The notes beneath the pieces are model-generated. The model had not been told where the DNA came from and made no database searches. It saw only the letters and a program-made list of their open reading frames with translations. Of a stretch of 34,954 bases of DNA, positions 4,283-21,217 are shown in pieces (the stretch's first letter is position 1; the number at the start of each line of letters is the position of its first letter). Source of the DNA: Paracoccaceae bacterium (GTDB taxonomy: Bacteria > Pseudomonadota > Alphaproteobacteria > Rhodobacterales > Rhodobacteraceae); contig JABXIA010000404.1 of the NCBI GenBank assembly GCA_013373325.1, forward strand, positions 1 through 34,954. The letters run 5' to 3'. A program made the position numbers and the translations under genes.

Positions 4283-5523
4283 GCACCGTCCGACCGCCCC
4301 TTGCAGTAGTGGTAAAGGGCTGGCCGCGCCTGTCCGAGACCTTTATCGCGCAGGAACTGGTTGCCCTCGAGGCCGCTGGCCATACTTTTGAAATCTGGTC
4401 ATTGCGCCATCCAACGGACATCAAGAGCCATCCCTTGCATGCACAGCTAAGGGCGCGCGTAAATTACCTGCCTGAGTATCTGCATGAAGAACCGGTCCGG
4501 GTCTGGCGCGCTCGCGAAGTTGCTCAGCAGTTGCCTGGATACGGCGAGGCTTACCGAATTTGGCGTGCGGACTTGCGCCGTGACGCGACGCCTAACCGTA
4601 TACGCCGTTTCGGCCAGGCTTGTGTTCTGGCGGCAGAAATGCCGGACGAGGTTCTAGGCCTCTACGCGCATTTCCTTCACACCCCATCATCTGTGGCTCG
4701 TTATGCAGCAATCATGCGGGGACTGCCGTGGAGCTTTTCCGCCCACGCCAAGGACATCTGGACCTCACCAGAGTGGGAGATCCAAGAGAAGCTCTCCGCA
4801 GCCCATCACGGCGCTGCATTTGGTGCTACATGCACTGGCTTTGGCGCCAAACATCTGCAGGAGTTGTCGGATACAGCGGAGCGTGTTGATCTGGTGTATC
4901 ACGGGCTGGACCTGACCCGATTTCCAGAACCGCCTGCGCGCCGGACGCGGCAGCCTCAAGACCCCATACGCTTCATGTCTGTAGGCCGCTTGGTTGAAAA
5001 AAAGGGGTTCGACCGCCTGATTGCCGCACTGGCTTTGCTGCCCGCGAGCCTTGACTGGCACTGGACTCATATTGGCGGCGGCGGGCTGGGTGACCTTTTG
5101 CAAGGTATGGCTGAAGATGCAGGCATTGCCGCTCGCATCACCTGGCGCGGTGCCTGCGACCAGCCAGAAGTGATTGAGGCAATGCGTTCATGTGACCTGT
5201 TCGTACTGCCCAGCCGGGTGGCAGCCGACGGTGACCGGGACGGACTGCCGAACGTGCTGATGGAGGCGGCTTCGCAGGCTTTGCCGATCCTGTCGACCCC
5301 TGTTTCAGCCATCCCGGAGTTCATAGACCACGGGCTTCACGGGCTTTTGAGCGATGACAGCCCTGAGGCGCTGGCAGAGAGTCTGCTCTCTGCTGCCCGG
5401 CACCCACAGAAAATGGCAGAAATGGCCCAGTCCGCTTTGGTCCGCTTGCGCAGCGATTTTGGGATGGATCCTGGAATTGCCCAGCTTTCGAAGCGGCTGA
5501 ATTCCATGCTGAAGAACGTCTGA
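4279..5523 (+). CDS. Glycosyltransferase family 4 protein, WcaL/AmsK-like
   Basis: Predicted retaining GT-B glycosyltransferase. It opens with VVKGWPRLSETFIAQEL (11-27), a signature of colanic-acid/amylovoran-type GT4 enzymes. The region FMSVGRLVEKKGFDRLI is the start of the C-terminal donor domain, and near 321-345 the DGLPNVLMEAASQALPILS stretch holds the usual Glu region that contacts the donor sugar phosphate. Length (414) is typical. The ATG overlaps the previous stop by 4 bp, and the next gene starts 5 bases after this stop, so the gene is translationally tied into the operon. It probably adds one sugar to a lipid- or polysaccharide-linked acceptor. Neither donor nor acceptor can be read from the sequence. 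Confidence 0.85.
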   Translation: MSTVRPPLAVVVKGWPRLSETFIAQELVALEAAGHTFEIWSLRHPTDIKSHPLHAQLRARVNYLPEYLHEEPVRVWRAREVAQQLPGYGEAYRIWRADLRRDATPNRIRRFGQACVLAAEMPDEVLGLYAHFLHTPSSVARYAAIMRGLPWSFSAHAKDIWTSPEWEIQEKLSAAHHGAAFGATCTGFGAKHLQELSDTAERVDLVYHGLDLTRFPEPPARRTRQPQDPIRFMSVGRLVEKKGFDRLIAALALLPASLDWHWTHIGGGGLGDLLQGMAEDAGIAARITWRGACDQPEVIEAMRSCDLFVLPSRVAADGDRDGLPNVLMEAASQALPILSTPVSAIPEFIDHGLHGLLSDDSPEALAESLLSAARHPQKMAEMAQSALVRLRSDFGMDPGIAQLSKRLNSMLKNV

Positions 5524-5528
5524 ACCCA

Positions 5529-6617
5529 ATGCTGCCTGGAGCCGGAAAGCGGGTTGTCTTCTATGCGCCGATGAAACCGCCGCACCACCCTGTACCTTCC
5601 GGCGATCGTGAGATTGCGCGCAACCTGATAGCGCTATTCAAGTCCAACCGCGCAGAGGTGCATCTTGCTTCGGATCTTAGGATCTATGACAAACACGGTG
5701 ACAGAGAACAGCAATGTGCCCTGCGCGCAAAGGCGGAAAGCGAGATCCTCCGCCTGGTTGCACAAATGCCCGAGGCGGACATCTGGGTCACGTATCACAA
5801 CTACTACAAAGCCCCTGACCTGATTGGCCCAATGGTGGCGCGCGCGCGGGGTATCCCGTATGTGCAGATCGAATCCACCCGTGCCCAAAAGCGCTTGACC
5901 GGCCCCTGGGCCGAGTTCGCCAAAGCGGCCCATGCGGCTGCCGATGCCGCAGATGCAATTTTCTATTTCACCGAACAGGACCGGTTTGCGCTGGATCGTG
6001 ACCGGTACGGGCACCAGATCATCACTTGCCTGCCCCCCTTCCTTCCCCGTGACGGGCTACCGGTCCCGTCTTCCCTGGACGGCCCCATTCTGGCAGCGGG
6101 CATGATGCGCCAGGGCGACAAATTGGCTTCATATGGCATCATTGCAGAAACACTTGCCCATCTGCCCGGTGATTGGCATCTGGGTATCGCAGGCGACGGT
6201 CCGGCTCGGGCTGAGGTTGAGACTCTGATGGCCCCATTCTCAGAAAGGGTCCGCTACCTGGGTCAACTCACCCGCGCCGAACTGGCTGCGGCTTATTCAA
6301 AGGCCAGCTTGTTCCTGTGGCCCGGAGTAAATGAAGCCTTTGGCATGGTTTATCTGGAAGCCCAAGCACATGGGCTTCCAGTCGCCGCTCAGGACCGACC
6401 CGGAGTGCGAGACGTACTGCTGCCCCAGGCCTATCCGGCGCCGGAAGCAGGCGCATCGGCTCTCGCATCTTTTGCCACCCGGCTGCTGGCTAACCCTGAG
6501 CTGCGAGCAAAATCCGCCAAAGATGCCCGCGCCTTTATTGCTAACAATCACCTTGCTCCGGCTGCCGCTCTGACCTTTTGGAAAACAGTTATGCCGCTAA
6601 TGGCCCCCTCCGCATGA
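5529..6617 (+). CDS. Glycosyltransferase family 4/1 protein
   Basis: Third glycosyltransferase of the operon, 362 residues. The N-terminus KRVVFYAPMKPPHHPVPSGD followed by REIARNL looks like an acceptor-domain start. The C-terminal half carries ILAAGMMRQGDKLASYGII and then NEAFGMVYLE (268-277), the E-x7-E motif of GT4 donor domains. There is no signal peptide or membrane segment. The start at 5529 lies 5 bases after the preceding stop, and the stop overlaps the next gene's ATG at 6614. Its place between two other transferases and a phosphatase suggests it adds a further sugar to the same glycan. Substrates are unknown. Confidence 0.83.
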   Translation: MLPGAGKRVVFYAPMKPPHHPVPSGDREIARNLIALFKSNRAEVHLASDLRIYDKHGDREQQCALRAKAESEILRLVAQMPEADIWVTYHNYYKAPDLIGPMVARARGIPYVQIESTRAQKRLTGPWAEFAKAAHAAADAADAIFYFTEQDRFALDRDRYGHQIITCLPPFLPRDGLPVPSSLDGPILAAGMMRQGDKLASYGIIAETLAHLPGDWHLGIAGDGPARAEVETLMAPFSERVRYLGQLTRAELAAAYSKASLFLWPGVNEAFGMVYLEAQAHGLPVAAQDRPGVRDVLLPQAYPAPEAGASALASFATRLLANPELRAKSAKDARAFIANNHLAPAAALTFWKTVMPLMAPSA

Positions 6618-7201
6618 TCCGGCTTGCTCTACTGCGCCACGGGCATACCGCCTGGAACCGCGCCGGACGCATCCAAGGCCGTAGCGACATACCGCTGGAC
6701 AATCCAGCCCGGACAGAGCTGGGCAGCTACATCCTGCCAGAAGATTGGCGACAAGCGGAGCTTTGGTCCAGTCCACTGATACGTGCAGCGGAAACCGCCT
6801 TGCTTGTCACAGGGCACAAACCGCGCACAGCATCTGAGCTTACCGAAATGGACTGGGGAGTTTGGGAAGGACGCCACGGTTTGGACCTAAAAGCTGATCC
6901 AGACAGCGGGTTTCGCGATATCGAACAATGGGGCTGGAATTACCGACCGCCCGGAGGGGAGAGCCCGGCGGAAGTCTTATCCCGTATCGAACCTTGGCTT
7001 TTTGCGCTTAAACAAGATGCTGTTGCGGTTTGCCATATTGGTATCATGCGAATGATCCTGGCACGGGCGCATGGCTGGGATTTCGATGGCCCCGCCCCAT
7101 TCCGCATTAAGCGGAACCGTCTGTTTGTAATCGAAGTAGATGACCGAAAATTACGTCCCTGGCCAGACCCGGTTCGGCTGCTTCGCAAGGGGTCCTCATG
7201 A
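6614..7201 (+). CDS. Histidine phosphatase (phosphoglycerate-mutase-like) family protein
   Basis: Cytosolic phosphomonoesterase of the histidine phosphatase superfamily, 195 residues. LLRHGHTAWN has the phosphorylated His in RHG (8-10), GRSDIPLD follows, the Glu motif is EMDWGVWEGRHG (79-89), PPGGES is at 112-117, and the second catalytic His is in VCHIG (His141). I chose ATG 6614 because it overlaps the previous stop and places RHG near the N-terminus. A start at 6578 would add 12 residues that lie inside the upstream gene. Relatives include alpha-ribazole phosphatase CobC and sugar-phosphate phosphatases. Here, among glycosyltransferases, a phosphorylated sugar or glycolipid intermediate is a plausible substrate, by inference only. 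Confidence 0.85.
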   Translation: MIRLALLRHGHTAWNRAGRIQGRSDIPLDNPARTELGSYILPEDWRQAELWSSPLIRAAETALLVTGHKPRTASELTEMDWGVWEGRHGLDLKADPDSGFRDIEQWGWNYRPPGGESPAEVLSRIEPWLFALKQDAVAVCHIGIMRMILARAHGWDFDGPAPFRIKRNRLFVIEVDDRKLRPWPDPVRLLRKGSS

Positions 7202-8334
7202 AAGTTCTGATTGCCGTCACACATCTGCTGGGTACTGGGCACTTGTCCAGAGCACTCACACTGGCCCGGGCTTTCATTAATGAGGGCCACCGGGTGCAAG
7301 TCATCTCCGGGGGTTTCCCAGCATCGCAGCTCACAACTGAAGGAGTTGAGCTGCTTCAGCTGCGTCCGTTGCGCTCCGACGGGGTAAACTTCACCCGCCT
7401 CTTGGCCGAAGACGGCACGCTAGCCAATGAAGCATACTTGGCACAACGACAGGCAGCCCTTTGCGTTGCGCTGAGGAACTTGCGACCCGACGTGTTGATC
7501 ACAGAACTCTACCCTTTTGGCCGGCGCTCCCTGCGAAGGGAGTTCCTAGCGCTGCTTGAAACTGCCCAAACACTGCCTCGGCGGCCGGTAATCCTGTCCT
7601 CTATCCGCGACATCCTCACCCCTCCGTCAAAGCCGGAGAAGGCGGAAAAAGCCGACGCACTGATCGCAAAGTACTTTGACGCGGTGCTGGTTCACTCTGA
7701 TCCCGCAGCCACCCGGCTCAACGCCAGCTGGCCGGTCTCTGATATTTTGGCAGCCAAACTGCGCTACACGGGGTATGTGGCCCCGGCCGCTGCTGGTTCT
7801 CACCCGGATCACGCAGGCGCCGGCGAAGTTCTGGTGAGCGCTGGCGGCGGCAGCGTGGGAACACCGCTCTATCGCTGCGCCCTGGAGGCCGCCAGGCTGA
7901 TGCCGGGCACGCCCTGGCGATTGCTCGTTGGCGGCTCAGATGCCGATGTTCGCATTGCAGAGTTTTCCGAGTCCAGGTCTCCTGCCTTGCTGGAGCCTGC
8001 CCGTCAGGACTTCCGCCAGATGCTTTCCCACGCCGCAACCTCCGTCAGCATGTGCGGCTACAATACTGCACTGGATATTTTGCAGGCTGGCACACCTGCT
8101 GTTTTTGTGCCCTTCGACGCTGGAAACGAGACAGAACAGAGCCTGCGTGCGGCCAGTCTCGCACCACTGAAAGGCATAGAAGTCCTGGAAACTGCCTGCC
8201 TTTCTCCTGAAGCGTTATGCGCTGCGGTCAAGACGGCAATGCAAGCACCGCCGCGACTTGCAGGCGGTTTCAGGTTTGACGGGGCGGTCCGGAGCGTGGA
8301 GATTGCCGCAGAACTTGCGGGAGGGCGCGAATGA
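7198..8334 (+). CDS. MurG-like glycosyltransferase, paralogue of the operon's first gene
   Basis: GT-B fold transferase of 378 residues. The N-terminal loop LGTGHLSRAL (11-20), the middle motif SSIRDIL, RYTGYV (189-194), the Gly-rich SAGGGSVGTP and SMCGYNTALDIL (284-295) line up one by one with the GLGHLRRSRAL, GLRDVL, HWTGYL, PGGGGDG and CMGGYNTFCEVL elements of the gene at 3056-4282. The two are therefore diverged copies kept in one operon. It starts inside the stop of the phosphatase gene (ATGA) and ends overlapping the deacetylase start. Probably cytosolic or membrane-associated, using a nucleotide sugar. The acceptor is unknown. Confidence 0.8.
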   Translation: MKVLIAVTHLLGTGHLSRALTLARAFINEGHRVQVISGGFPASQLTTEGVELLQLRPLRSDGVNFTRLLAEDGTLANEAYLAQRQAALCVALRNLRPDVLITELYPFGRRSLRREFLALLETAQTLPRRPVILSSIRDILTPPSKPEKAEKADALIAKYFDAVLVHSDPAATRLNASWPVSDILAAKLRYTGYVAPAAAGSHPDHAGAGEVLVSAGGGSVGTPLYRCALEAARLMPGTPWRLLVGGSDADVRIAEFSESRSPALLEPARQDFRQMLSHAATSVSMCGYNTALDILQAGTPAVFVPFDAGNETEQSLRAASLAPLKGIEVLETACLSPEALCAAVKTAMQAPPRLAGGFRFDGAVRSVEIAAELAGGRE

Positions 8335-9089
8335 CACCGGATTGGAGCGAGCTGGACCGGGAACTGGACCACTGGCAGCAGGCAGGATTGTGTCTGCCCC
8401 TGTGGTGGCGGGACGATGATGCAATGTCCCATTCTTCTGAACTGGAACAGCTGGCAGTGCTTTCAGCAGACCTAGATCTTCCGGTACATTTGGCCGTGAT
8501 CCCGCAAGGCGCGACACCTGATCTGGCCCGTTTCATCGCGGAGCATCCAACACTCGTCCCGGTCGTCCACGGTTGGGCTCACCAGAACCATGCACCGGCT
8601 GGCGAAAAGAAAGCCGAATTCGGCGCGCACCGACCGCTGGAAGAACTGCTGGATGACGCCGAGCGCGGCCTGACTGCGATGCAGAACTTGTTTGGCGGTT
8701 GCCTGCGTCCAATGTTTGTACCGCCGTGGAACCGGATTTCACCGGAAATGCTGACTTGGCTGGCAGGCGCCGGCTATACTGCTGTTTCAACCTTCACCCC
8801 CCGCAAGGCTGCCAAACCCGCTTCCGGCCTGTTGCGTGTAAACACGCATCTGGATCCGATAGACTGGAAAGGCGGCCGCGGCCTACTACCGCTGGACAAG
8901 CTGATAATGCAGGTGGCACATCAGTTGCGCGACCGCCGAATGGGCGATGCGGACAACACGGAACCCTATGGGCTCCTAACTCACCATCTGGTACATGATG
9001 AGGCAACTTGGTCTTTCACCGGCGCACTCGCAAAGCGCCTGCTTGACGGCCCGGGCGAGGCTTGGATCTATGACGAAAGGATGTCTTGA
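8331..9089 (+). CDS. Polysaccharide deacetylase-like (NodB homology) protein
   Basis: Member of the carbohydrate esterase 4/NodB-like fold, 252 residues. The conserved Asp cluster is WWRDDDAM (D28-D30), and VVHGWAHQNHAP supplies the two zinc His residues in H-x3-H spacing (His80, His84). FVPPWNRISPEML is the usual R/P-W motif after the metal site. There is no signal peptide, so unlike secreted chitin deacetylases it would act in the cytosol, perhaps removing an N-acetyl group from a sugar nucleotide or lipid-linked sugar. Overlap with the previous gene is 4 bp, and the methyltransferase begins immediately after its stop. True deacetylase activity is inferred from the metal triad. Confidence 0.82.
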   Translation: MTPDWSELDRELDHWQQAGLCLPLWWRDDDAMSHSSELEQLAVLSADLDLPVHLAVIPQGATPDLARFIAEHPTLVPVVHGWAHQNHAPAGEKKAEFGAHRPLEELLDDAERGLTAMQNLFGGCLRPMFVPPWNRISPEMLTWLAGAGYTAVSTFTPRKAAKPASGLLRVNTHLDPIDWKGGRGLLPLDKLIMQVAHQLRDRRMGDADNTEPYGLLTHHLVHDEATWSFTGALAKRLLDGPGEAWIYDERMS

Positions 9090-9569
9090 ATGAGCCGTCT
9101 AGATTCCATGCTGCGCCGTCTGACTGCCCAGCGAGACGGATTGAACTGGGCCGCGGAACAGATCAATCAAGTCAAAGGCGATGTTCTGGACATGGGGCTC
9201 GGCAACGGTCGCACCTATGACCACTTGCGCGAAATCGTGAGCGCCCGCCGGATCTGGGTCATTGATCGGATTCTGCAATGCCATCCGTCATGCGTCCCGC
9301 CGGAAAAGGACTTTCTTCAGGGTGAAGCCAGACCGATGCTGGAGCAGCTTGCGGCAAGCGGTCACAAGATTGCCCTCGCACACTATGACTTCGGTTTTGG
9401 TGTCAAAGAAAAGGACGTTGCAGAATCTGCCACACTCTCGCCGGTGATTGCTCGAGTCATGGTCTCTGGCGGGCTTATCGTTTCCGGCCAACCGCTGACC
9501 GGCTTTGAAGAGCTGAGTGGCCCCGACGGCATACCGGCCGGGCGCTATATGTTTTATCGCGCCGGCTGA
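9090..9569 (+). CDS. Small class I SAM-dependent methyltransferase
   Basis: Last gene of the glycosyltransferase operon, 159 residues, starting on the base after the deacetylase stop. Motif I, DVLDMGLGNGRTYDHL (31-46), is a SAM-binding Gly-rich loop, and the acidic residue after the second strand is in WVIDRI. The second half (ALAHYDFGFG, then ARVMVSGGLIVSGQPL) completes a short Rossmann-type core. It is smaller than typical methyltransferases and resembles the Pfam Methyltransf_17-type group of roseobacters and rhizobia, a recollection I could not check. Its place suggests methylation of the sugar product. The target is unknown. It converges on phnM with a 33-base gap. Confidence 0.8.
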   Translation: MSRLDSMLRRLTAQRDGLNWAAEQINQVKGDVLDMGLGNGRTYDHLREIVSARRIWVIDRILQCHPSCVPPEKDFLQGEARPMLEQLAASGHKIALAHYDFGFGVKEKDVAESATLSPVIARVMVSGGLIVSGQPLTGFEELSGPDGIPAGRYMFYRAG

Positions 9570-9602: not shown

Positions 9603-10745
9603 CTAAGCTACCCGCACACCGCGCGCCCAGACACCTCGCAAAGCAGGCGCTCCCGCCGGCATGCTGAACCGGATCAGGTCAGCACGTTTGCCTACTTCCA
9701 GCCGCCCGCGGTCATCAAGCCCGACCGCAGCAGCGGGTGCATGGGTAACAGTGCCCAATCCTCGCGCCAAATCCCCCCATAGCTCTCCCAACTTGACTGC
9801 AGACATTAACAGCGCGGCAGGCACATAGTCAGACGAAAGAATGTCCAGCATTTCCAGTTCCGCCAATTCGTGCGCGGCAACGTTGCCAGAATGCGATCCG
9901 CCGCGGATCAGGTTCGGCGCTCCCATCATGACTTTGATGCCTTGCAAACGGCACGCCTGCGCGGCCTCGACCGTCGTTGGAAATTCAGCTAGGCGGATCC
10001 CATGGCCTGCGGACACCGCCACCTGAGCTGCGGTTGTGTCGTCGTGGCTGGCCAGCACGGCACCAAATCGCCTGGCCGCGGCAACGGCCGCCGCTTCGTG
10101 CAACGCGCCATAAGTTTCCTGCAACTCCCTCAGATGCGCAACATGCGACTGAAAGGCAGTGTCATCAAACCCATGTTTGCCTTTTAGATACTGCTCCAGC
10201 TTGGAGAGGTCGCGAAACTGGCGCTGGCCCGGAGTGTGATCCATGAGCGAGACCAGCCCGACACGATCTTCTATTTCGAAGGCATTCAGTTCCTCCACTA
10301 GAGTATCCGTACAGACCTCAGCCCTGAGATGCAGAAAGTGCGAAATTTTCAGAGCGTTCGCAGATCGCAACTCCAGAAGCTCGGAGGCCAATTGCCGGGC
10401 ATACGCGCCATAGCGGCTTTCCCGGCGGCTGATCGAACCTACGCGCATAGCGTCAAACACAGTGGTAATGCCGGTCCCCGCGAGCTCCGCGTCATGAGCA
10501 ATAATCGCGCTGGCATGCGGCCAGTCCACCTTCGGGCGCGGCTGAATATGGCGTTCCAGGTTATCCGTATGCAGTTCCACTAGGCCAGGGCTAACAATAT
10601 CCCCTTGGCAATCCAAAGCGCCCGCCGGGACCGATGCTCCATCGGAGATGTCTGCTATCACACCACCTTTAACTTTCACACTGCCGGTCCGGATCTCACC
10701 CGGAAGCACCAGTGCAGCATTGGCAAGGATCATCTCATCTGTCAT
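9603..10745 (-). CDS. phnM: Alpha-D-ribose 1-methylphosphonate 5-triphosphate diphosphatase PhnM
   Basis: Amidohydrolase-superfamily enzyme of the C-P lyase pathway. It removes pyrophosphate from alkylphosphonate ribose 5-triphosphate to give the 5-phosphate that PhnJ cleaves. The metal-binding stretch is PGLVELHTDN (53-62), with His59 and Asp61, and later metal-site motifs include ASHDDTT and SSDYVPAALL. Length of 380 matches E. coli PhnM. It lies on the same strand as phnG-N but is separated from phnN by the plus-strand DUF1045 gene, whose start is 50 bases away, so phnM probably has its own promoter in that short divergent gap. It converges with the glycosyltransferase operon downstream. 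Confidence 0.95.
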   Translation of the reverse strand: MTDEMILANAALVLPGEIRTGSVKVKGGVIADISDGASVPAGALDCQGDIVSPGLVELHTDNLERHIQPRPKVDWPHASAIIAHDAELAGTGITTVFDAMRVGSISRRESRYGAYARQLASELLELRSANALKISHFLHLRAEVCTDTLVEELNAFEIEDRVGLVSLMDHTPGQRQFRDLSKLEQYLKGKHGFDDTAFQSHVAHLRELQETYGALHEAAAVAAARRFGAVLASHDDTTAAQVAVSAGHGIRLAEFPTTVEAAQACRLQGIKVMMGAPNLIRGGSHSGNVAAHELAELEMLDILSSDYVPAALLMSAVKLGELWGDLARGLGTVTHAPAAAVGLDDRGRLEVGKRADLIRFSMPAGAPALRGVWARGVRVA

Positions 10746-10795
10746 CTGAACTTCACATCTTTCGAGCTATGGAAGGCCACGTCTAGGAGGCCAAT

Positions 10796-11479
10796 GTGAC
10801 ATTCACGCGATACGCGATCTATTATGCTCCGCCCGCCGATGCGGAATGGAGCCGGTTTGCAGCCAGCTGGCTTGGATGGGATATCCAGACAGGCAAGCCC
10901 TTGTCGCACCCGGACATAGCGGGACTGGTCATTGGTGCGATTACAGAAGTGCCTCGAAAGTATGGGTTGCACGCGACAATGAAACCGCCGGCACGCCTGG
11001 CCGTTGGACAGACACAGGCGGCGCTTGAAATCGCCTGTGAAGCCTTTGCGGCTTCTCAGAAGCCTGTCAGCCTGGACGGTCTTCACTTGGCGCGCCTTGG
11101 CCGTTTTCTCGCTTTGCGTCCAACCGGTGACCAGTATGAACTGAACAAACTCGCAGCAAATTGCGTGACTGAGTTCGATAGGTTCCGGGCGCCGCTTTCC
11201 ACGGCGGATATGGACCGCCGCCGTGCCGCTGGTCTGACGTCGGAACAGGACGAAAACCTCACCCGCTGGGGCTACCCTTATGTTTTCAGTCAGTTCCGCT
11301 TTCACATAACCTTGACGGGAAAGCTGCCCAAACCAGAACTGCCCGCCGTGGAGGCCGCACTGAATGAGCACCTGATCCCATTTTTGCCTTCGCCCTTTGT
11401 GATTCGCGACCTGGCGCTGGTGGGCGAAGCGACGGATGGCAGGTTTCACCTCATTCATCGCTATGCACTCTCCGGCTGA
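10796..11479 (+). CDS. DUF1045 phosphonate-operon protein with two HxT (2H phosphoesterase) motifs
   Basis: A 227-residue protein of the DUF1045 family, often found with C-P lyase genes and of unknown function as far as I know. It has two H-x-T motifs: GLHATMKPP (His59, Thr61) and FRFHITLTG (His170, Thr172), about 110 residues apart. This is the catalytic pattern of 2H phosphoesterases, which open cyclic phosphodiesters. Since phnP (ribosyl 1,2-cyclic phosphate phosphodiesterase) is not in this cluster, a role in opening that ring is a good hypothesis. The start is GTG at 10796 behind TAGGAGG with 5-base spacing. It is divergent from phnM and its end overlaps the end of phnN by 19 bp. Family call is firm; function is inference. 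Confidence 0.88.
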   Translation: MTFTRYAIYYAPPADAEWSRFAASWLGWDIQTGKPLSHPDIAGLVIGAITEVPRKYGLHATMKPPARLAVGQTQAALEIACEAFAASQKPVSLDGLHLARLGRFLALRPTGDQYELNKLAANCVTEFDRFRAPLSTADMDRRRAAGLTSEQDENLTRWGYPYVFSQFRFHITLTGKLPKPELPAVEAALNEHLIPFLPSPFVIRDLALVGEATDGRFHLIHRYALSG

Positions 11480-12021
11480 ACGACTGCCAGCGCAGCGTTC
11501 ACCGCTGCACTCAGCGCCCCGCTGTTGTCGATCTGATGGACCCTGCGTAAGCCAGTTGGCAGCGGCTTCATCGCGCGGGCCAGTCGCCGCTCCACTTCAT
11601 CTCCGCTCTCTCTGCCGCGGGCAGCAAGCCGTTCTGCTAGAACCTGCGGGTGTGCAGTCACCGAAAGCACAATTAAGTGGCCGAACTTTTCCTGCGCCTC
11701 CAACAAAACCGCGCGGGACAAGTTTACCAGTACACCGGCAGCTTCCTCACGCAGGTTTTCGATGTCACGGGGGATGCCGTAGTGGAGGCCATGCGCCTGC
11801 CAATGCATTGAAAAGACACCAGCTTCGGCCAAGGCTGAGAACTCCGCTTCTGATACGGCCTGATAGTCCTCGCCACCGGCTTCGGGCGCTCGCGTGATCA
11901 CTCGGCGCACCACGCGCAGCTGAGGGCCTGAGACCGCCAGAGCGGACATGAGACTGTCCTTTCCAACACCTGATGGCCCGACCACTGCAATAACCGGACT
12001 TTTTTGGGCCTCCTTGCTCAT
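11461..12021 (-). CDS. phnN: Ribose 1,5-bisphosphate phosphokinase PhnN
   Basis: Kinase that makes PRPP from ribose 1,5-bisphosphate with ATP, linking phosphonate breakdown to nucleotide, His and NAD synthesis. The guanylate-kinase-like P-loop is GPSGVGKD (15-22). RVITRAP and the later RESGDEVERRLAR (lid-type arginines) fit the family. With the start at 12021 the protein has 186 residues, close to E. coli PhnN (185). This ATG overlaps the phnL stop (ATGA), whereas an upstream ATG at 12069 would add 16 residues inside phnL. The 3' end overlaps the convergent DUF1045 gene by 19 bp. It is the last gene of the phnGHIJKLN run. Confidence 0.92.
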   Translation of the reverse strand: MSKEAQKSPVIAVVGPSGVGKDSLMSALAVSGPQLRVVRRVITRAPEAGGEDYQAVSEAEFSALAEAGVFSMHWQAHGLHYGIPRDIENLREEAAGVLVNLSRAVLLEAQEKFGHLIVLSVTAHPQVLAERLAARGRESGDEVERRLARAMKPLPTGLRRVHQIDNSGALSAAVNAALAVVQPESA

Positions 12022-12701
12022 GCCAGGGCCTTCGGAGAAAAAACCGAGACGTCCACGAAACGGTCGCATACTGTTTCTCGGGCGGCTTCATCATGGAAAA
12101 TGCCGATAATGGCCGCTCCCCGTGCCTTGGCGGTCTCGATCAGGCCCAGAACAGTAGCGCGGTTTTGCGCATCAAGGCTGGCCGTTGGCTCATCCAGCAG
12201 CAGCGCGGGAAAGTCATAGGCAAAGCCTCGGGCAATATTCACCCGCTGCTGTTCGCCGCCGGAAAAAGTCGTTGGGCTAAGGCCCCAAAGCCGTTCTCGG
12301 ATGTTGAGCTGTGCAAGCAAAGAGGCCGCCTTGTCACGGGCTTGGCCCTCCGGAGTTCCAACCGCCAGTAAGGGCTCAGCTACGACATCCAAAGTCGGCA
12401 CCCGCGGAACGACACGCAAGAACTGGCTGACATATCCCAGGGTTTCGCGGCGCAGCGCTAGGATTTCGCGCGGCTCGGCCTTGGCAACATCGACACCGCC
12501 AACCACCACACTGCCAGAGGCAGCCAGATAGTTGCCATAGATCACCCGCATCAGCGTGGACTTGCCTGCACCGGATACTCCAGTCAGCCCGACACATTCT
12601 CTGGGTTCCACACACAGTGTTGCGTTTTGCATCACCGGGATCACCGCGCCGCCCTGATTGTGCAAGGTAAAGCTCTTGCTCACATTGTTCAGTTCAATCA
12701 T
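12018..12701 (-). CDS. phnL: C-P lyase complex ATP-binding protein PhnL
   Basis: ABC-type ATPase of the C-P lyase system, 227 residues, not part of a transporter here. Walker A is GVSGAGKST (41-49), the signature FSGGEQQR (146-153) and Walker B LLLDEP (167-172). In E. coli PhnL binds on top of the PhnK dimer of the core complex and helps couple ATP hydrolysis to the reaction, and PhnI/G/H/L carry out the nucleoside-transfer step. It starts 10 bases after phnK and its stop overlaps the phnN start. Confidence 0.95.
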   Translation of the reverse strand: MIELNNVSKSFTLHNQGGAVIPVMQNATLCVEPRECVGLTGVSGAGKSTLMRVIYGNYLAASGSVVVGGVDVAKAEPREILALRRETLGYVSQFLRVVPRVPTLDVVAEPLLAVGTPEGQARDKAASLLAQLNIRERLWGLSPTTFSGGEQQRVNIARGFAYDFPALLLDEPTASLDAQNRATVLGLIETAKARGAAIIGIFHDEAARETVCDRFVDVSVFSPKALA

Positions 12702-12711
12702 GACCCTGCCC

Positions 12712-13482
12712 TCAAACGTGCAGCACGCTGGAAACCAGCAGTTGGGTATAGCCGTGCTGGGGATCGTCCAGTACTTGGTCAGTCAGCCCCGTTTCCAACA
12801 CGCAGCCATCTTTCATCACCATCAGCCGGTCAGCCAGCAGCCGCACTACGGCCAAATCATGGGTGACGATAATGGCGCTCAGCCCCATTTCCCGCACCAG
12901 CCCGCGCAAGAGGTCGAGAAGGCGCGCCTGGACAGAGACATCCAATCCCCCAGTCGGTTCGTCCATGAAAACCAATCGCGGGCCGGTCACCAGATTGCGG
13001 GCAATCTGCAGACGCTGCTGCATCCCGCCAGAGAACGCGGAAGGGCGATCGTCAATCCGGTTCTCGCTGATCTCAACCCGCGCCAGCCAGTCAGCCGCTC
13101 GTTCCCGGATGGAACCATAGTGCCGGCCCCCAACCGCCATCAGCCGCTCACCGATATTGCCACCGGCCGAAACTGACATTCGCAATCCGTCGCGGGCGTG
13201 CTGGTGGACAAAAGCCCAATCTGTTCGCGACAGCATCCGCCGCTCAGGTTCGGACATGGTTACCGTATCCACCGGCCCGTCCGCGCGTGTGTCGAAGATG
13301 ACCTCACCACAATCGGGGGCCAAATGTCCCGCCAGGCTGTTCAGCAACGTCGATTTTCCCGAGCCGCTTTCGCCAACAATCCCCATGACTTCGCCAGGGT
13401 ACAAATCAAACGTCACATCCTTGCAGCCGATCCGGGCGCCGTAAAATTTCCTAATGTTTTTCACTTGCAGCAGGGGTGTCAT
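12712..13482 (-). CDS. phnK: C-P lyase complex ATP-binding protein PhnK
   Basis: ABC-type ATPase resembling the ATP-binding subunits of peptide transporters, 256 residues. Walker A is GESGSGKST (37-45), signature SGGMQQR (151-157), Walker B VFMDEP (171-176). In the E. coli core complex (PhnGHIJ)2, PhnK docks on PhnJ. The ATG at 13482 shares one base with the phnJ stop (TGATG). A GTG one codon earlier is also possible. The family call is strengthened by its place between phnJ and phnL. Confidence 0.95.
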   Translation of the reverse strand: MTPLLQVKNIRKFYGARIGCKDVTFDLYPGEVMGIVGESGSGKSTLLNSLAGHLAPDCGEVIFDTRADGPVDTVTMSEPERRMLSRTDWAFVHQHARDGLRMSVSAGGNIGERLMAVGGRHYGSIRERAADWLARVEISENRIDDRPSAFSGGMQQRLQIARNLVTGPRLVFMDEPTGGLDVSVQARLLDLLRGLVREMGLSAIIVTHDLAVVRLLADRLMVMKDGCVLETGLTDQVLDDPQHGYTQLLVSSVLHV

Positions 13483-14339
13483 CACGCGGCCTCCCCACCA
13501 AGACGGCCGGAATGGCCCGCTTCGCGCCGCGACCGGCAGTAATCAGTATCCGAGCAAACAAACATCCGGCCGCCTGCATCATCCAGAATGACCTCGTCCA
13601 GGTAACTGTCCTCTGCCCCGCAGAGATCACAAGGATGATCAGCCTTACTGGCTTCAAACGGATGATCCTCAAAGTCCAGAGAGACGACCTGGGTATAGGG
13701 CGGCAGCGCATAAATTCGTTGCTCCCGGCCCGCGCCAAACAGCTGGATTGCCGCCATTTCCATTTTGGGATTGTCGAATTTGGGGATCGGTGAAGGATCC
13801 ATTACATAGCGCCCTTCCACTTTAACCGGATAGGCATAGGCAGTGGCGATGGCGCCATGCTGGCTGATATCCTCATACAGTTTCACATGCATCAGCCCGT
13901 ACTCCTCAAGCGCGTGCATCTTGCGGGTTTCGGTCTCGCGCGGCTCCAGAAAGCGCAGCGGCTCTGGGATTGGCACCTGGTAGACCAGGATTTGATCCTC
14001 GGTCAGTTCTGCCTCAGGGATCCTGTGACGGGTCTGGATAACGCTGGCCCTTGCGGTTCTCTCAGTGGTCGCAATGCCGGCCGTCTTTTCAAAGAACTTA
14101 CGGATCGAGACCGCGTTGGTGGTGTCATCAGCCCCCTGATCGATCACTTTGAGCGTATCATCCGGGGTCAGCGTGGCGGCCGAGACCTGCACGCCGCCGG
14201 TGCCCCATCCATAGGGCATCGGCATCTCGCGGCTGGCAAAGGGCACTTGATAGCCCGGCACCGCCAACCCTTTCAGGATTGCCCGGCGGATCATCCGCTT
14301 GGTCTGCTCGTCCAGATATGCAAAGTTATAGTCGCTCAT
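13482..14339 (-). CDS. phnJ: Alpha-D-ribose 1-methylphosphonate 5-phosphate C-P lyase PhnJ
   Basis: Catalytic radical-SAM-type subunit that breaks the carbon-phosphorus bond, releasing the hydrocarbon and ribose 1,2-cyclic phosphate 5-phosphate. All key residues are in place: the glycyl-radical Gly in AVPGYQVPF (Gly29, equivalent to E. coli Gly32) and four C-terminal cysteines, C237-x2-C240-x21-C262-x5-C268, in CDLC and VCSDTDYC. Three of them hold the 4Fe-4S cluster and the last matches the E. coli thiyl-radical Cys272. Length 285 (E. coli 281). I chose ATG 14339 because MSDYNFAYLDEQTKRM aligns with E. coli. A longer ORF start at 14372 is less likely. Unusually, 232 bases separate it from phnI. 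Confidence 0.97.
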   Translation of the reverse strand: MSDYNFAYLDEQTKRMIRRAILKGLAVPGYQVPFASREMPMPYGWGTGGVQVSAATLTPDDTLKVIDQGADDTTNAVSIRKFFEKTAGIATTERTARASVIQTRHRIPEAELTEDQILVYQVPIPEPLRFLEPRETETRKMHALEEYGLMHVKLYEDISQHGAIATAYAYPVKVEGRYVMDPSPIPKFDNPKMEMAAIQLFGAGREQRIYALPPYTQVVSLDFEDHPFEASKADHPCDLCGAEDSYLDEVILDDAGGRMFVCSDTDYCRSRREAGHSGRLGGEAA

Positions 14340-14377
14340 GGCTTTTCCTTTACCGCCCAACTGAGGGAGCATTTGCT

Positions 14378-14571: not shown

Positions 14572-15672
14572 TCATTCCGCCGCCTCCCTTGACGCCAGCG
14601 TTTCAGCCAGTTCCGCGGCCTCGCGGCGCAGCTTGCGGACCAGTTCCAGCTCAGACTGAAAATCCACATAATGCGGCAGCTTGATGTGCTCCAGAAATCC
14701 AGTCGCTTGGATATTGTCTGAGTGGCTCAGGACAAACTCCTCATCCTGCGCAGGTGCCCCCAGATTGTCCTCACCTAGCTCTTCCCAGCGCAGCGCCCTG
14801 TCTACCAGCGCCATAGCGATCGATTTGCGCTCGGACTGGCCAAAGACCAGGCCATAGCCGCGGGTAAACTGCGGTGGCACTGTTTTGGAACCCTTGAACT
14901 GGTTCACCGTCTCGCACTCGGTCAGTTCTACCTCGCCAATCTCGATGCAAAAGCCGAGTTCCGGAATTTCCATCTCCACCGGCACAGTGCCGATGCGCAG
15001 CTCTCCGACAAAGGCATGGTTGCGCGCATATCCGCGTTGGGTGGAGTAAGCCATGCCGAGGATAAACCCCTCGTCGCCACGTGTCAGCGCTTGCAGACGT
15101 ACTGCCCTCCCCGCGGGAAAGGCAATCGGTTCGCGTGTCAGATCGCCGGGCACCTCGTCCGAAAACGCCTCACGCTCGATAATGTCCTCCCCCTGCAGAA
15201 AGGTAGTGATGTGCGGCGTGGCTTCCATCCGCGGCTCGGCAGCCGGGGCTTCGGGCACGTCACCTTCGGCGGCAAGTTTGAAATCCAGCAAACGGTGGGT
15301 GTAGTCGAATGTTGGTCCCAGCACCTGGCCGCCCGGCGCATCCTTAAACGTCGCCGATATCCGCCGGTCACAGGCCATCTCGCTGGTTTCCACCGGCCTT
15401 GAGGAACCAAACCGCGGCAAAGTAGTGCGATAGGCACGAACCAGGAAAATGGCCTCGATTAGATCACCTCGCCCTTGTTTGATTGCCAGGGCGGCAAGAT
15501 CGGGATCATACAAAGATCCTTCAGCCATCACCCGGTTTACTGCAAGACTTAGCTGTTCACGGATCTGCGCAAGAGAAAGCTCCGCAACATTGGTGTCACC
15601 CCGGCGTTCTTCGGCAAGCCAGGCATGGGCGTTTTGGATGGCGCGCTCGCCACCTTTGACTGCAACATACAT
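14572..15672 (-). CDS. phnI: C-P lyase complex subunit PhnI
   Basis: Core subunit of the C-P lyase complex, 366 residues (E. coli 354). In E. coli PhnI has nucleosidase activity and, with PhnG, PhnH and PhnL, attaches the phosphonate to the ribose of ATP with loss of adenine. Recognised by the N-terminus MYVAVKGGERAIQNAH and the conserved C-terminal region containing ATGFLEHIKLPHYVDFQSEL. It starts 3 bases after the phnH stop. The C-terminal tail is Ala/Glu-rich. Downstream is a 232-base gap before phnJ that holds the small ORFs described separately. Confidence 0.96.
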   Translation of the reverse strand: MYVAVKGGERAIQNAHAWLAEERRGDTNVAELSLAQIREQLSLAVNRVMAEGSLYDPDLAALAIKQGRGDLIEAIFLVRAYRTTLPRFGSSRPVETSEMACDRRISATFKDAPGGQVLGPTFDYTHRLLDFKLAAEGDVPEAPAAEPRMEATPHITTFLQGEDIIEREAFSDEVPGDLTREPIAFPAGRAVRLQALTRGDEGFILGMAYSTQRGYARNHAFVGELRIGTVPVEMEIPELGFCIEIGEVELTECETVNQFKGSKTVPPQFTRGYGLVFGQSERKSIAMALVDRALRWEELGEDNLGAPAQDEEFVLSHSDNIQATGFLEHIKLPHYVDFQSELELVRKLRREAAELAETLASREAAE

Positions 15673-15675
15673 CGC

Positions 15676-16260
15676 TTAGGCCTCCGCTATGACTCGAGTG
15701 GACCGCGGCAAGGCCGTAATCTGCGATGCTGAGGTGAAGAAGAAATCCAACCCTAGCGGAAATGAGGCTGCGTTAGCTTGAAGCGCGGCAAGTTCGGGCA
15801 CCTGCATGCGAGCCATTTCCTTGATCCCCGGACCGCTCAGCACCGCATTCGGCACATCCAGGCTGTGCATTTCGACAATCAGCGTGGCCGAGCGGTCAGG
15901 ATACTCTGCCGTTCCTCTGCGAAAGCGGTTGAGCGGTTGCAAGTGCTGCCACCCGCCCAAAGCGAAATCCGCCTGCTCCGCGTCAACGACCGGAGCGCTG
16001 GTGTGAAAGGCCAGCCAGCCACGCAGGGCCTCGCTGTCCACATCAGGCGCCAGATAAACGCCGGTTTCCGGGTCGCAAAGGGTCAGCAAAAGGCTGCCTG
16101 CAGCCACTGAAACCCCTTCTGGAGGCTTTGCCCCTGAAATTTCCTGTATCTGACCGGGACGGGCCATTGCATTCATCGCCGCTCGGAAAGCATGCGCGGC
16201 AGCAAACTGCGGATTGCCAAATCCGCCTGAGAAAACTGTGCTCCGGGATTGCTGATCCAT
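15676..16260 (-). CDS. phnH: C-P lyase complex subunit PhnH
   Basis: Core subunit of the (PhnGHIJ)2 complex. PhnH has a PLP-transferase-like fold without the cofactor and binds the PhnI partner. Length of 194 equals E. coli PhnH. Recognised by FSGGFGNPQFAAAHAFRAAM and the following NAMARPGQI near the N-terminus, and by the PLGLDFFFTS segment near the C-terminus. I chose ATG 16260, which shares a base with the phnG stop (TGATG). A TTG one codon earlier is possible. It is directly followed by phnI. Confidence 0.95.
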   Translation of the reverse strand: MDQQSRSTVFSGGFGNPQFAAAHAFRAAMNAMARPGQIQEISGAKPPEGVSVAAGSLLLTLCDPETGVYLAPDVDSEALRGWLAFHTSAPVVDAEQADFALGGWQHLQPLNRFRRGTAEYPDRSATLIVEMHSLDVPNAVLSGPGIKEMARMQVPELAALQANAASFPLGLDFFFTSASQITALPRSTRVIAEA

Positions 16261-16712
16261 CAATCCTCTCCCCGCACCATCGTGAAAAACTCAACCTTTG
16301 TCGCTGCAGCCTTAGACGCGCGGGCCGTCTTCTGCTCTTGCCGTGCTTGCGCCAGCGGCATCAGCACAGCCTCACTCAAGGCTTCAGCAGCATCCGTCTG
16401 CATCAGCGCATCTATCTTGGCTGCAATCTCCGCCTTCGCCTTGCAGCGGCCCTGCACATAGCCATGGCCAACCGTGCCGTCCGCCAGCGAAAGTGCGCAT
16501 CGGGTGACGGTCATTTCACCCACATTGAAGGGAGCACCAGTACTGCCCATTCGGCCGCGGACCATTATCCCGCCAACTTCGGGAGCGCGGAGGAACTCAC
16601 AATCAGGGTCCAACCCGTAATCTTGCCACAGCTCAGTCAGCCGGACTTCTTCAGCAGAGGCCAGAAGGCTCATCCAGACCTTGCGATCTTCTGCACGAAA
16701 ATTGGTGTTCAT
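16260..16712 (-). CDS. phnG: C-P lyase complex subunit PhnG
   Basis: First gene of the minus-strand phn operon, encoding the 150-residue PhnG subunit (same length as E. coli). It sits against PhnI in the core complex and is needed for the phosphonate-ribosylation step. The conserved features MSLLASAEEVRLTELW and the C-terminal ATKVEFFTMVRGED stretch support the call, together with the gene order. The ATG at 16712 has an AAGAGG about 10 bases upstream. The promoter should lie in the 107-base gap shared with the divergent regulator gene phnF. Confidence 0.94.
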   Translation of the reverse strand: MNTNFRAEDRKVWMSLLASAEEVRLTELWQDYGLDPDCEFLRAPEVGGIMVRGRMGSTGAPFNVGEMTVTRCALSLADGTVGHGYVQGRCKAKAEIAAKIDALMQTDAAEALSEAVLMPLAQARQEQKTARASKAAATKVEFFTMVRGED

Positions 16713-16763: not shown

Positions 16764-16819
16764 ATACTACCCAATTCTCGTTCTCCGGTGCAATCCCAGA
16801 TTTGTGAAAGTTCAGTGAC

Positions 16820-17533
16820 ATGGCCCGCACGCCCGTTTGGAAGTCCATTGCTATCGCCCTGACCGACGACATCGCGCAGGGCCGGTATGAAACCGGCGGC
16901 AAGCTCCCCGCCGAAGTACAGCTGTCGGCTCGTTTCGGGGTGAACCGGCATACGGTGCGCCGGGCATTGTCGGAATTGGCGGAACAGGGATTGGTCCATT
17001 CGCGCCGCGGTGCCGGAGTTTTTGTAGCTTCCAAACCAACGGATTACCCGATCAGCAAGCGGGTGCGTTTCCACCAGAACCTGACACGCGAAGGCCGCAG
17101 CCCTGCCAAAAAGATCCTGACGCTTGAAACCCGCGCGGCATCTGCCCGCGAGGCCAAGGCGCTGCAACTGGACCCGGGCGCAGAGGTGCATGTCTACGAC
17201 GGGTTATCGCTCGCGGATGGCCAGCCCATCGCCCTGTTTCAAAGCATCTTCCCTGCAGACCGCTTTCCCGGCATACTCGACTCCCTTCAGGAGCAGCGAT
17301 CGGTCACTGCAACTCTGCAGAAGTTCGGGATTGAGGACTATACCCGGATCGAAACCCGGATCACTGCCAAGCTTGCCACGGCCACCCAGGCGCTGCACCT
17401 CAGGATCGCCGAAGGCAGTCCGATCCTGCGCACAACAGGTGTCAATGCGGACCCGCGGGGGCAGCCTGTCGAATTCGGTCGCACTTGGTTTGCCGGCGAC
17501 AGGGTGACACTAACCGTAAGCAGCGAAAGCTGA
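16820..17533 (+). CDS. phnF: PhnF, GntR/HutC-family transcriptional regulator of phosphonate genes
   Basis: Cytosolic DNA-binding regulator of 237 residues. The N-terminal winged helix is at about 5-70, with the recognition region LSARFGVNRHTVRRALSEL and then QGLVHSRRGAGVFV. Residues from about 95 to 230 form a UTRA ligand-binding domain of the HutC subfamily. It is divergent from phnG, as in other alphaproteobacterial C-P lyase loci, and the shared 107-base region holds a tandem repeat that is the likely operator. PhnF is expected to act as a repressor relieved by phosphate limitation or by a pathway metabolite. Which ligand it binds is not known. Confidence 0.92.
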   Translation: MARTPVWKSIAIALTDDIAQGRYETGGKLPAEVQLSARFGVNRHTVRRALSELAEQGLVHSRRGAGVFVASKPTDYPISKRVRFHQNLTREGRSPAKKILTLETRAASAREAKALQLDPGAEVHVYDGLSLADGQPIALFQSIFPADRFPGILDSLQEQRSVTATLQKFGIEDYTRIETRITAKLATATQALHLRIAEGSPILRTTGVNADPRGQPVEFGRTWFAGDRVTLTVSSES

Positions 17534-17606: not shown

Positions 17607-18410
17607 TCACTGCTGGGCGTTAAAGACGAACAGCGTTTCACCATTAATCTGATAAGCGTTGATAAGTTCCTTGGCCTTGTCCGATACCAGCCACTCCTCC
17701 AGTTGCAGTGCCAGGCTGTTCTTCACATGGACATGCTTCTTCGGGTTTACCGGGATATAGGCATACTGGTTGAACAGCACCGGATCACCGGCAAACAGCA
17801 AGCTCAACCCTGACTTGTTGCCGAAATTCAGCCAGCTGGCGCGGTCCGACATGATATAGGCGCCCATGCCCGCTGCGGTATTGAGCGCAGCTCCCATACC
17901 CGCGCCAACAGCACGGTACCACTCACCAAAACCTTCGGGATCCAACCCTGCGGCCTTCCAGAGGCTCAGCTCCTTCTTGTGCGTGCCGCTGTCGTCGCCG
18001 CGGCTGACAAAAGCCGCCTCCGTCCCGGCAATCCTTTGCAAAGCACCAGCTGCATTTTCGGCGCCAGCGATCCCTGCGGCATCGCCTTCAGGTCCGATGA
18101 AAACAAAATCGTTGTACATAATCTCGCGGCGGTGGGTGCCGTTGCCACCCAGCAAGAACTTCTCCTCGGCCTTCTTCGAATGCACCAGGATCGCGTCAAC
18201 GTCCCCCGCCTCCCCCAAGCGGATCGCCTGGCCAGTGCCGACGACCAGCAACTGCACATCCAGCCCCAAGTCGCTCTTGATCTCCGGCAGAAGAATTTCA
18301 GCCAGGCCGGAATTATGGAAAGAGGTGGTCACCGCCATCTTCATCTCTTCCGTCAGCGCCGCCGTGGCCCAGATTAATGAGGCAACAGCACCCAAAATAA
18401 GACGTTTCAT
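17607..18410 (-). CDS. tupA: Tungstate ABC transporter substrate-binding protein TupA
   Basis: Periplasmic oxyanion-binding protein, 267 residues, delivering tungstate to the TupBC importer for tungsten or molybdenum enzymes such as formate dehydrogenase. The signal peptide is about residues 1-20 (MKRLILGAVASLIWATAALT). The ligand-site start AVTTSFHNSGLAEILLP resembles the TTTS-x-x-SGL motif of TupA, followed by VGTGQAIRLGEAGDVDAILV and SRGDDSGTHKKE. This fits TupA better than ModA or phosphate-binding PstS. The ATG overlaps the tupC stop by 4 bp. Metal preference (W over Mo) is family inference. Confidence 0.88.
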   Translation of the reverse strand: MKRLILGAVASLIWATAALTEEMKMAVTTSFHNSGLAEILLPEIKSDLGLDVQLLVVGTGQAIRLGEAGDVDAILVHSKKAEEKFLLGGNGTHRREIMYNDFVFIGPEGDAAGIAGAENAAGALQRIAGTEAAFVSRGDDSGTHKKELSLWKAAGLDPEGFGEWYRAVGAGMGAALNTAAGMGAYIMSDRASWLNFGNKSGLSLLFAGDPVLFNQYAYIPVNPKKHVHVKNSLALQLEEWLVSDKAKELINAYQINGETLFVFNAQQ

Positions 18411-21214: not shown

Positions 21215-21217
21215 TCC

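Follow-up and report, generated by a model that had tools for sequence, protein, structure and literature searches.

PhnP of Escherichia coli is a metallo-beta-lactamase-fold enzyme of the C-P lyase pathway, and E. coli phnP strains are described as accumulating ribosyl 1,2-cyclic phosphate, the phosphorus of which they cannot use (PMC3463581). A 2023 review, citing Podzelinska et al. 2009, gives 54 operons, of which 27 carry PhnP and 16 are phnP-less and carry rcsF (PMC10574752). The rcsF gene of a Rhodobacteraceae fosmid has been proposed as a PhnP replacement, and that fosmid, with rcsF and without phnP, is reported to confer growth on methylphosphonate upon E. coli deleted for phnH-P (PMC3840354). 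The idea that DUF1045, the family to which these RcsF proteins belong, substitutes for PhnP is thus already published, proposed in 2009 and 2013 and restated for DUF1045 since (PMC8235418). In Phaeobacter sp. MED193 the DUF1045 protein increases 3.98-fold under phosphorus limitation, as tabulated, PhnI, PhnJ, PhnL and PhnM also rise, and all of these proteins are listed as undetected in a phoB mutant (PMC10132767). A different kind of precedent is the noncontiguous operon menE-menC-MW1733-ytkD-MW1731 of Staphylococcus aureus, in which an oppositely directed gene is embedded; a review (PMC7154746) classes the stretch antisense to it as an internal untranslated region.

Here, we describe a phn cluster in which the gene for the candidate PhnP substitute is itself embedded in the operon in reverse orientation. 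The window, the whole stretch of DNA analysed, is a contig region of 34,954 nucleotides from a Paracoccaceae bacterium. Its relevant features are the following.

9603 to 10745, minus strand: phnM, profile match
10740 to 10756, plus strand: Pho-box-like repeat TGTCAT-N5-CTTCAC, motif match; its first half-site includes the phnM start codon
10742 to 11458, minus strand: bridge ORF of 238 codons, codon-aligned antisense to DUF1045; its openness is conserved, its sequence is not
10796 to 11479, plus strand: DUF1045 (TIGR03223), 227 amino acids, 2H-fold phosphodiesterase by profile and predicted fold, proposed PhnP substitute
10970 to 10978, plus strand: codons of the first motif, HAT, residues 59-61, conserved
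11303 to 11311, plus strand: codons of the second motif, HIT, residues 170-172, conserved
11461 to 12069, minus strand: phnN, profile match
12018 to 12701, minus strand: phnL, profile match
12712 to 13485, minus strand: phnK, profile match
13482 to 14372, minus strand: phnJ, profile match
14572 to 15672, minus strand: phnI, profile match
15676 to 16263, minus strand: phnH, profile match
16260 to 16712, minus strand: phnG, profile match
16804 to 16820, minus strand: second Pho-box-like repeat, in the phnF/phnG gap and directed toward phnG, 2 of 12 letters off
16820 to 17533, plus strand: phnF, regulator, profile match

The minus-strand order is phnG-H-I-J-K-L-N, the DUF1045 region and phnM. A sequence-only reading of the window had placed DUF1045 among phnF, phnG-N and phnM, and profile matches bear out these neighbours; absent from that reading was the strand of DUF1045, which is opposite to that of phnG-N and phnM. 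The gene begins with GTG, diverges from phnM with 50 bp between the two starts, and shares its last 19 bp (11461-11479) with the 3' end of phnN. Overlap is common among convergent DUF1045/phnN pairs in general (80 of 86, exactly 19 bp in 50), non-embedded layouts included. DUF1045 lies antisense inside the phn operon, an oppositely directed gene between genes of one operon as in the noncontiguous operon of S. aureus, and the order PhnM< DUF1045> PhnN< PhnL< recurs in 53 of the 80 nearest DUF1045 loci of named genomes. By curated cut-offs the protein is a member of the DUF1045/TIGR03223/'RcsF' family of other phn clusters and is no different from its relatives there; what sets the window apart is the embedding of the gene.

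The surroundings of the cluster also hold recognisable genes. A three-gene ABC transporter adjoins phnF (17607-19821, minus strand), the binding protein and permease of which match the tungstate models TupA (184 bits vs a cut-off of 400) and TupB (170 vs 320) below cut-off, and no phnCDE was seen within the window. An NAD synthesis block with nadA and nadC (NCBIfam) and an intervening ORF that is probably nadB occupies 20162-23625 on the plus strand. On the other side, a plus-strand gene row that ends at phnM (4279-9569) includes a glycosyltransferase 28 domain (7198-8334) and a methyltransferase (9090-9569). A similar row of glycosyltransferases, a histidine phosphatase, a polysaccharide deacetylase and a methyltransferase adjoins phnM at the same place on the megaplasmid of Ruegeria sp. 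TM1040.

A transcript of the operon would have to cross the DUF1045 region to reach phnM, unless a promoter lies inside DUF1045. On the operon strand this region is spanned by the bridge ORF, which starts 2 nt past the phnN stop codon and ends in an ATGA overlap with phnM. Because the bridge is codon-aligned with DUF1045, the only sense codons of DUF1045 that create bridge stops are TTA, CTA and TCA. In 60 embedded loci (the window, three loci of the same family, and L150-L229 including L219 and L220) these three codons occur 22 times, as against 116 predicted from the usage of each locus in its other phn genes, and they are absent from 44 of the 60 embedded DUF1045 genes compared with 8 of 25 non-embedded ones. 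Their rate is 0.0098 in embedded DUF1045, 0.052 in the other phn genes and 0.0645 in non-embedded DUF1045. TTA (ratio 0.05) and CTA (0.07) are the most strongly depleted of the codons tested and TCA is third (0.46); ATA, AGA and GTA show no depletion in embedded DUF1045. Outside L080 and L220, and with the exception of a TCA at codon 13 in L210, stop-making codons occur only at codon 2 or within the last eleven codons of DUF1045, close to where the bridge ends or begins, respectively.

Stops were then compared with expectation in 59 loci with enough other phn codons, or 55 after removal of L080, L143, L219 and L220. In these 55 loci, from Rhodobacterales and close kin and including some metagenome-assembled genomes named only as Alphaproteobacteria, the bridge interior contains 2 stops against 76.2 expected, and 53 frames are open against about 22.5 expected by chance, while stops number 389 and 273 in the two remaining antisense frames. 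Thinning to below 55% identity leaves 10 loci with no stops against 22.7 expected. Ten further plasmid loci, drawn from 145 PLSDB records with a match, half of them Paracoccus and with incomplete gene tables, contain none against 10.05 expected. Among the diverged embedded loci, the frame is open in L219 and L143 and carries 10 stops in L080 (11.3 expected) and 4 in L220 (5.1 expected). Other layouts, represented by further alphaproteobacterial and a few non-alphaproteobacterial loci, show no depletion and in fact exceed expectation, with 27 stops against 15.0 in 20 tandem loci, 63 against 46.5 in 21 convergent loci at operon ends, and 11 against 3.2 in 4 loci of other layouts. Two loci from genomes without phnJ, L164 and L176, have the order PhnM< DUF1045> PhnN< without phnG-L, and the bridge is still open in both (231 amino acids in L164).

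The boundaries of the bridge are conserved as well. In 58 loci, the 62 of the stop-position set minus L080, L143, L219 and L220, an NTG codon stands 2 nt past the phnN stop in 51 (ATG in 22, GTG in 19, TTG in 10), and the same is found in 9 of the 10 plasmid loci. This codon faces DUF1045 codon 221, which encodes His or Gln in 53 of 58 embedded and 7 of 27 non-embedded genes (Fisher test, 2e-9); behind each of the ten TTG starts stands the Gln codon CAA, even though these loci use CAG three times as often. Past DUF1045, the frame first meets a stop at position -10 relative to the phnM start in 27 of 62 loci and at +1, as ATGA, in 14, so that 41 of 62, and not all, end at one of these two positions. 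Shine-Dalgarno-like words are slightly enriched before the bridge start (32 of 58 vs 22.5 in shuffled sequence) and hardly before phnM (13 vs 10.9). As the enrichment is slight, re-initiation after phnN is likelier than fresh initiation at the bridge. Taken statistically, these counts show that, in Rhodobacterales and their close relatives, the operon-strand frame is under selection to remain free of stops, with a start directly after phnN and often a stop at phnM. An open frame kept by selection is what is looked for in an antisense overlapping gene, and it is present here.

What such a frame does can be read in several ways. TTA, CTA and TCA are uncommon in these genomes and about 22 of the 55 loci would be open by chance, so an open frame might be thought a by-product of codon bias in GC-rich DNA; with 53 of 55 loci open, the other phn genes of the same loci using the three codons five times more, non-embedded DUF1045 genes doing likewise, and a search of the non-embedded layouts finding no depletion, we regard that explanation as barely credible. 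The conserved start, openness and often stop would suit a true antisense overlapping gene with a functional product. However, we detected no amino-acid conservation of the bridge beyond that of the sense gene in four-fold sites, Pfam scans or a structural model: identity at four-fold sites of DUF1045 (0.503) is not raised above that of PhnN (0.507) and PhnM (0.515; 371 pairs), none of four scanned products has a Pfam match, and the modelled product reaches a pLDDT of only 46.6 with 37 sequences. A functional bridge protein is accordingly improbable; the ORF is also listed in none of eight annotated plasmid records, the tables of which are incomplete. It is somewhat less improbable, though still unlikely, that phnM has a promoter inside DUF1045 and that the open frame serves a shorter antisense leader, or something else, rather than read-through from phnN. 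PhnM is given as 0.28% in MED193 as against 0.01-0.02% for PhnI, PhnJ, PhnL and DUF1045 (PMC10132767), an excess of about tenfold that may stem from a promoter belonging to phnM itself; an internal promoter, however, would not require a frame that is open over its full length and begins 2 nt past phnN in 51 of 58 loci.

The reading that we prefer is that the bridge is translated, and that the passage of ribosomes, not a useful protein, is its purpose. Ribosomes leaving phnN would read through a frame that has no meaning of its own before starting on phnM, and their presence would shield a long antisense stretch of the transcript from Rho-type termination or decay. In this respect the phn cluster would differ from the S. 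aureus operon with its internal untranslated region, as its antisense stretch is, judging from the DNA, kept as an open frame that is coupled to phnN and, in many loci, to phnM as well. Among the literature matches listed, none described a noncontiguous operon with an antisense stretch that is both stop-free and start-coupled.

The divergent gap between DUF1045 and phnM may hold the signal that drives the embedded gene. The window contains two matches to the Pho-box-like repeat with at most two mismatches, as against 1.8 expected by chance, and both lie in the divergent gaps of the cluster. A broader set comprised all divergent phnM gaps shorter than 130 bp, 62 loci that form a different set from the bridge loci. 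In 53 of these 62 gaps (3.8 expected), a TGTCAT-N5-TGTCAC-like repeat directed toward DUF1045 matches at 9 or more of its 12 letters, and its first half-site includes the phnM start codon in 41 of the 53. Since the start codon fixes three letters of that half-site, the second was also scored alone at fixed spacing, and at least 4 of its 6 letters match in 39 of 62 gaps, as against about 2.5 expected. Each half-site contains TCA, which is TGA on the other strand, and the repeat can therefore also supply a bridge stop. The 50-bp gap is a probable site of a PhoB-driven promoter for DUF1045; dependence of DUF1045 on phoB is published for MED193 only.

The enzymatic role of DUF1045 was approached through its motifs and predicted fold. 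The window protein scores above cut-off with three models: Pfam DUF1045 (E = 8.4e-58), LigT_PEase (24.1 bits vs 23.3) and the TIGR03223 family titled 'putative phosphonate metabolism protein' (267.4 vs 248.95). Two HxT motifs about 110 residues apart had been read in this 227-residue protein, and the spacing from HAT to HIT is exactly 111. At least two H-x-[TS] motifs are present in all 80 DUF1045 sequences listed, the window included; among 104 phn-linked homologues, H59, T61 and H170 are invariant and T172 is retained by 103. The paired motifs in the window are therefore not due to chance. R5, Y56, R131 and Y160 are further invariant residues of DUF1045, additional to what plant, LigT and YjcG 2H proteins share. 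Structure prediction, which the sequence-only reading had suggested, gave a confident 2H fold (AlphaFold2 with 62 homologues, mean pLDDT 96.9). The best structural match is YjcG (Z 15.7, rmsd 3.1, 165 residues aligned), E. coli LigT scores 13.6 and the Arabidopsis cyclic phosphodiesterase 13.5, and the top-ranked matches are 2H proteins. DUF1045 thus combines the paired H-x-[T/S] motifs with the predicted fold of the 2H superfamily. Its likeness to the plant Appr>p cyclic phosphodiesterase (1jh6, 1fsi; the title of the second PDB entry of the Arabidopsis enzyme names Appr>p as its substrate), LigT/ThpR and YjcG lies in predicted fold and paired HxT motifs, at 12-18% identity over the best structural matches. 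A PDB sequence search gave nothing with the single DUF1045 protein and three chance-level rows with a profile, and profile comparison with a single E. coli ThpR sequence was uninformative. When the plant enzyme opens a ribose 1'',2''-cyclic phosphate, the product is the 1''-phosphate, the same regiochemistry as in the PhnP step.

On this reading DUF1045 would open 5-phosphoribosyl 1,2-cyclic phosphate, the product of PhnJ, to ribose 1,5-bisphosphate, which PhnN would turn into PRPP; it would share the proposed reaction and pathway place of E. coli PhnP while having an unrelated fold. A comparison of phnP and DUF1045 across phnJ genomes had been envisaged along with the proposal, and we carried it out in two samples. 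Of 385 evenly drawn genomes of the window's class, 65 have phnJ and 81 a DUF1045 match; strict DUF1045 is present in 63 of the 65 and PhnP over cut-off in none. A phylum sample of 398 genomes gave 84 phnJ matches, reduced to 73 by leaving out one broken match (G414, removed before counting) and ten genomes already tested; DUF1045 occurs in 52 of these and PhnP over cut-off in 19. The two are mutually exclusive over the resulting 138 phnJ genomes, with strict DUF1045 in 115, PhnP in 19, both in none and neither in 4. Gene content is largely confounded with class (111 of the 115 DUF1045 genomes are from the window's class); the 25 phnJ genomes outside it have DUF1045 in 4, PhnP in 19, neither in 2 and both in none, and both solutions occur inside one family (G605 and G713). 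Within the class, phnJ and DUF1045 lie at most 15 kb apart in 50 of the 64 genomes with both, on opposite strands in 27 of the 50. The absence of phnP from the cluster, remarked on before, extends to the rest of the window, and a search of its own genome (90.5% complete) found no PhnP over cut-off, the best match to TIGR03307 reaching 47.1 bits vs 272.25.

The four phnJ genomes with neither gene, G161 and G259 (both small), G720 and G723, imply that another enzyme can serve; inspection of the clusters of the survey exceptions revealed no obvious substitute. G259 was counted as lacking DUF1045, and it has a divergent 50-bit relative that is also found in its phnJ-less congeners G030 and G337. 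In this 1.4-Mb genome, ORFs with a 5'-nucleotidase C-terminal domain and a HAD-type hydrolase stand just before phnG in a phnG-M cluster (L119, 5454-6683). G720 and G723 belong to one non-alphaproteobacterial family, and their clusters (L117, L118) contain phnF-N without PhnP over cut-off or DUF1045; G539, a congener of G723, has PhnP.

DUF1045 also occurs apart from C-P lyase. Fourteen class genomes, including the single-contig G154, G168 and G348, have full-strength DUF1045 without phnJ, and phnJ is absent altogether from 16 of the 26 genomes behind loci that have none nearby. All of 30 phnJ-less DUF1045 genomes keep the four motif residues together with R5, Y56, R131 and Y160. Loci without phn neighbours, some from genomes that carry phnJ elsewhere, are scattered over the DUF1045 tree, with 25 label changes of which at least nine are forced by well-supported branches. 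Of the 30 phnJ-less genomes, 26 encode a member of the PhnM family, over the PhnM cut-off in 12 of the 26, as against none of 50 control genomes of the class, which have neither DUF1045 nor phnJ. These controls all come from outside the window's own family, so that kinship may account for part of the signal in the 17 own-family or Rhodobacterales-type cases; beyond that family, the class sample gives 9 of 13. PhnM also recurs in 16 of 51 DUF1045 loci outside phn clusters, next to which the other neighbours are an ABC-ATPase type match in 7, PhnF in 4, PhnN in 3 and others in at most 5. Pfam scans of 20 ORFs, mostly neighbours in phn-less loci or in the exceptional clusters, revealed nothing shared. 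These distributions suggest that DUF1045 and PhnM may have a second role together, apart from C-P lyase.

Two candidates for the substrate in such genomes were considered and rejected. KptA/Tpt1 makes Appr>p, another ribose 1,2-cyclic phosphate, which DUF1045 could in principle open, and the window's own genome encodes a KptA/Tpt1 RNA 2'-phosphotransferase (G000:C94:213-698, 183.5 bits). KptA/Tpt1 is found in 11 of the 385 class genomes, 6 of the 81 with a DUF1045 match and 5 of the 304 without, and in 0 of 17 phnJ-less DUF1045-positive ones; it is not a general source of substrate there. PRPP decays to the cyclic phosphate of the PhnP step, and a role in PRPP repair predicts that PhnN is kept with DUF1045. 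PhnN is present in 3 of 30 phnJ-less genomes (two matches over cut-off and one of 112 bits) vs 2 of 50 controls, weaker matches near 50-67 bits having been left out of both groups, among them a 51-bit partial stretch adjoining DUF1045 in G281.

These observations bear on two other accounts of the enzyme. The cyclic phosphate might be opened by a distant PhnP-like metallo-beta-lactamase, leaving DUF1045 another job in the pathway: a sub-cut-off match to the PhnP model occurs in 65 of 65 class phnJ genomes, and the window's genome encodes a metallo-beta-lactamase related to that model (C109:465-1238, 47.1-49 bits). That protein, however, fits a different metallo-beta-lactamase model much better (245 bits against a cut-off of 360), and weak matches to the PhnP model also occur in 11 of 14 control genomes and so are not specific to phosphonate users. 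This account leaves both the mutual exclusion of DUF1045 and PhnP and the rescue by the rcsF fosmid unexplained, the latter because E. coli phnP strains fail, and we hold it to be quite improbable. An unlikely but less remote alternative is that the main substrate of DUF1045 is some other ribose 1,2-cyclic phosphate or a cyclic nucleotide, handled together with PhnM, and that the C-P lyase pathway does no more than recruit the enzyme. It would accommodate the 30 phnJ-less genomes that retain DUF1045 with all catalytic-motif residues, as well as the occurrence of PhnM in 26 of 30 genomes vs 0 of 50 controls and as a recurring neighbour in 16 of 51 loci. Against it stand the presence of strict DUF1045 in 63 of the 65 phnJ genomes among 385, the absence of KptA as a substrate source from the 17 phnJ-less class genomes with DUF1045, and the kinship that may underlie part of the PhnM association, for which the figure outside the window's family is 9 of 13. 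The predicted fold, the mutual exclusion and the published fosmid genetics all favour the earlier proposal that DUF1045 fills the PhnP step; very probably, as far as sequence and model can tell, it opens a sugar cyclic phosphate in phosphonate breakdown.

We consider it probable that the cluster is explained jointly by a 2H enzyme in the PhnP role, a translated bridge and a probable PhoB-driven promoter. Only marginally less probable, as a pair, are the translated bridge in a noncontiguous operon and a DUF1045-PhnM partnership independent of C-P lyase. As far as we have searched, the following are new: the bridge, a Pho-box-like repeat that overlaps the phnM start, and the possible partnership of DUF1045 with PhnM apart from phnJ.

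The step proposed for the enzyme channels phosphorus from methylphosphonate into the metabolism of marine Rhodobacterales. No enzyme assay of DUF1045 was found in the open-licence literature searched, and survey and fold make one worthwhile. The bridge, if the reading is true, would reveal how a bacterium can have a backwards gene in an operon and still serve the gene beyond it, by means of an antisense frame that is apparently selected for openness while its protein is not conserved. The loss of TTA, CTA and TCA only in the embedded layout provides a signature by which such arrangements may be searched for genome-wide.
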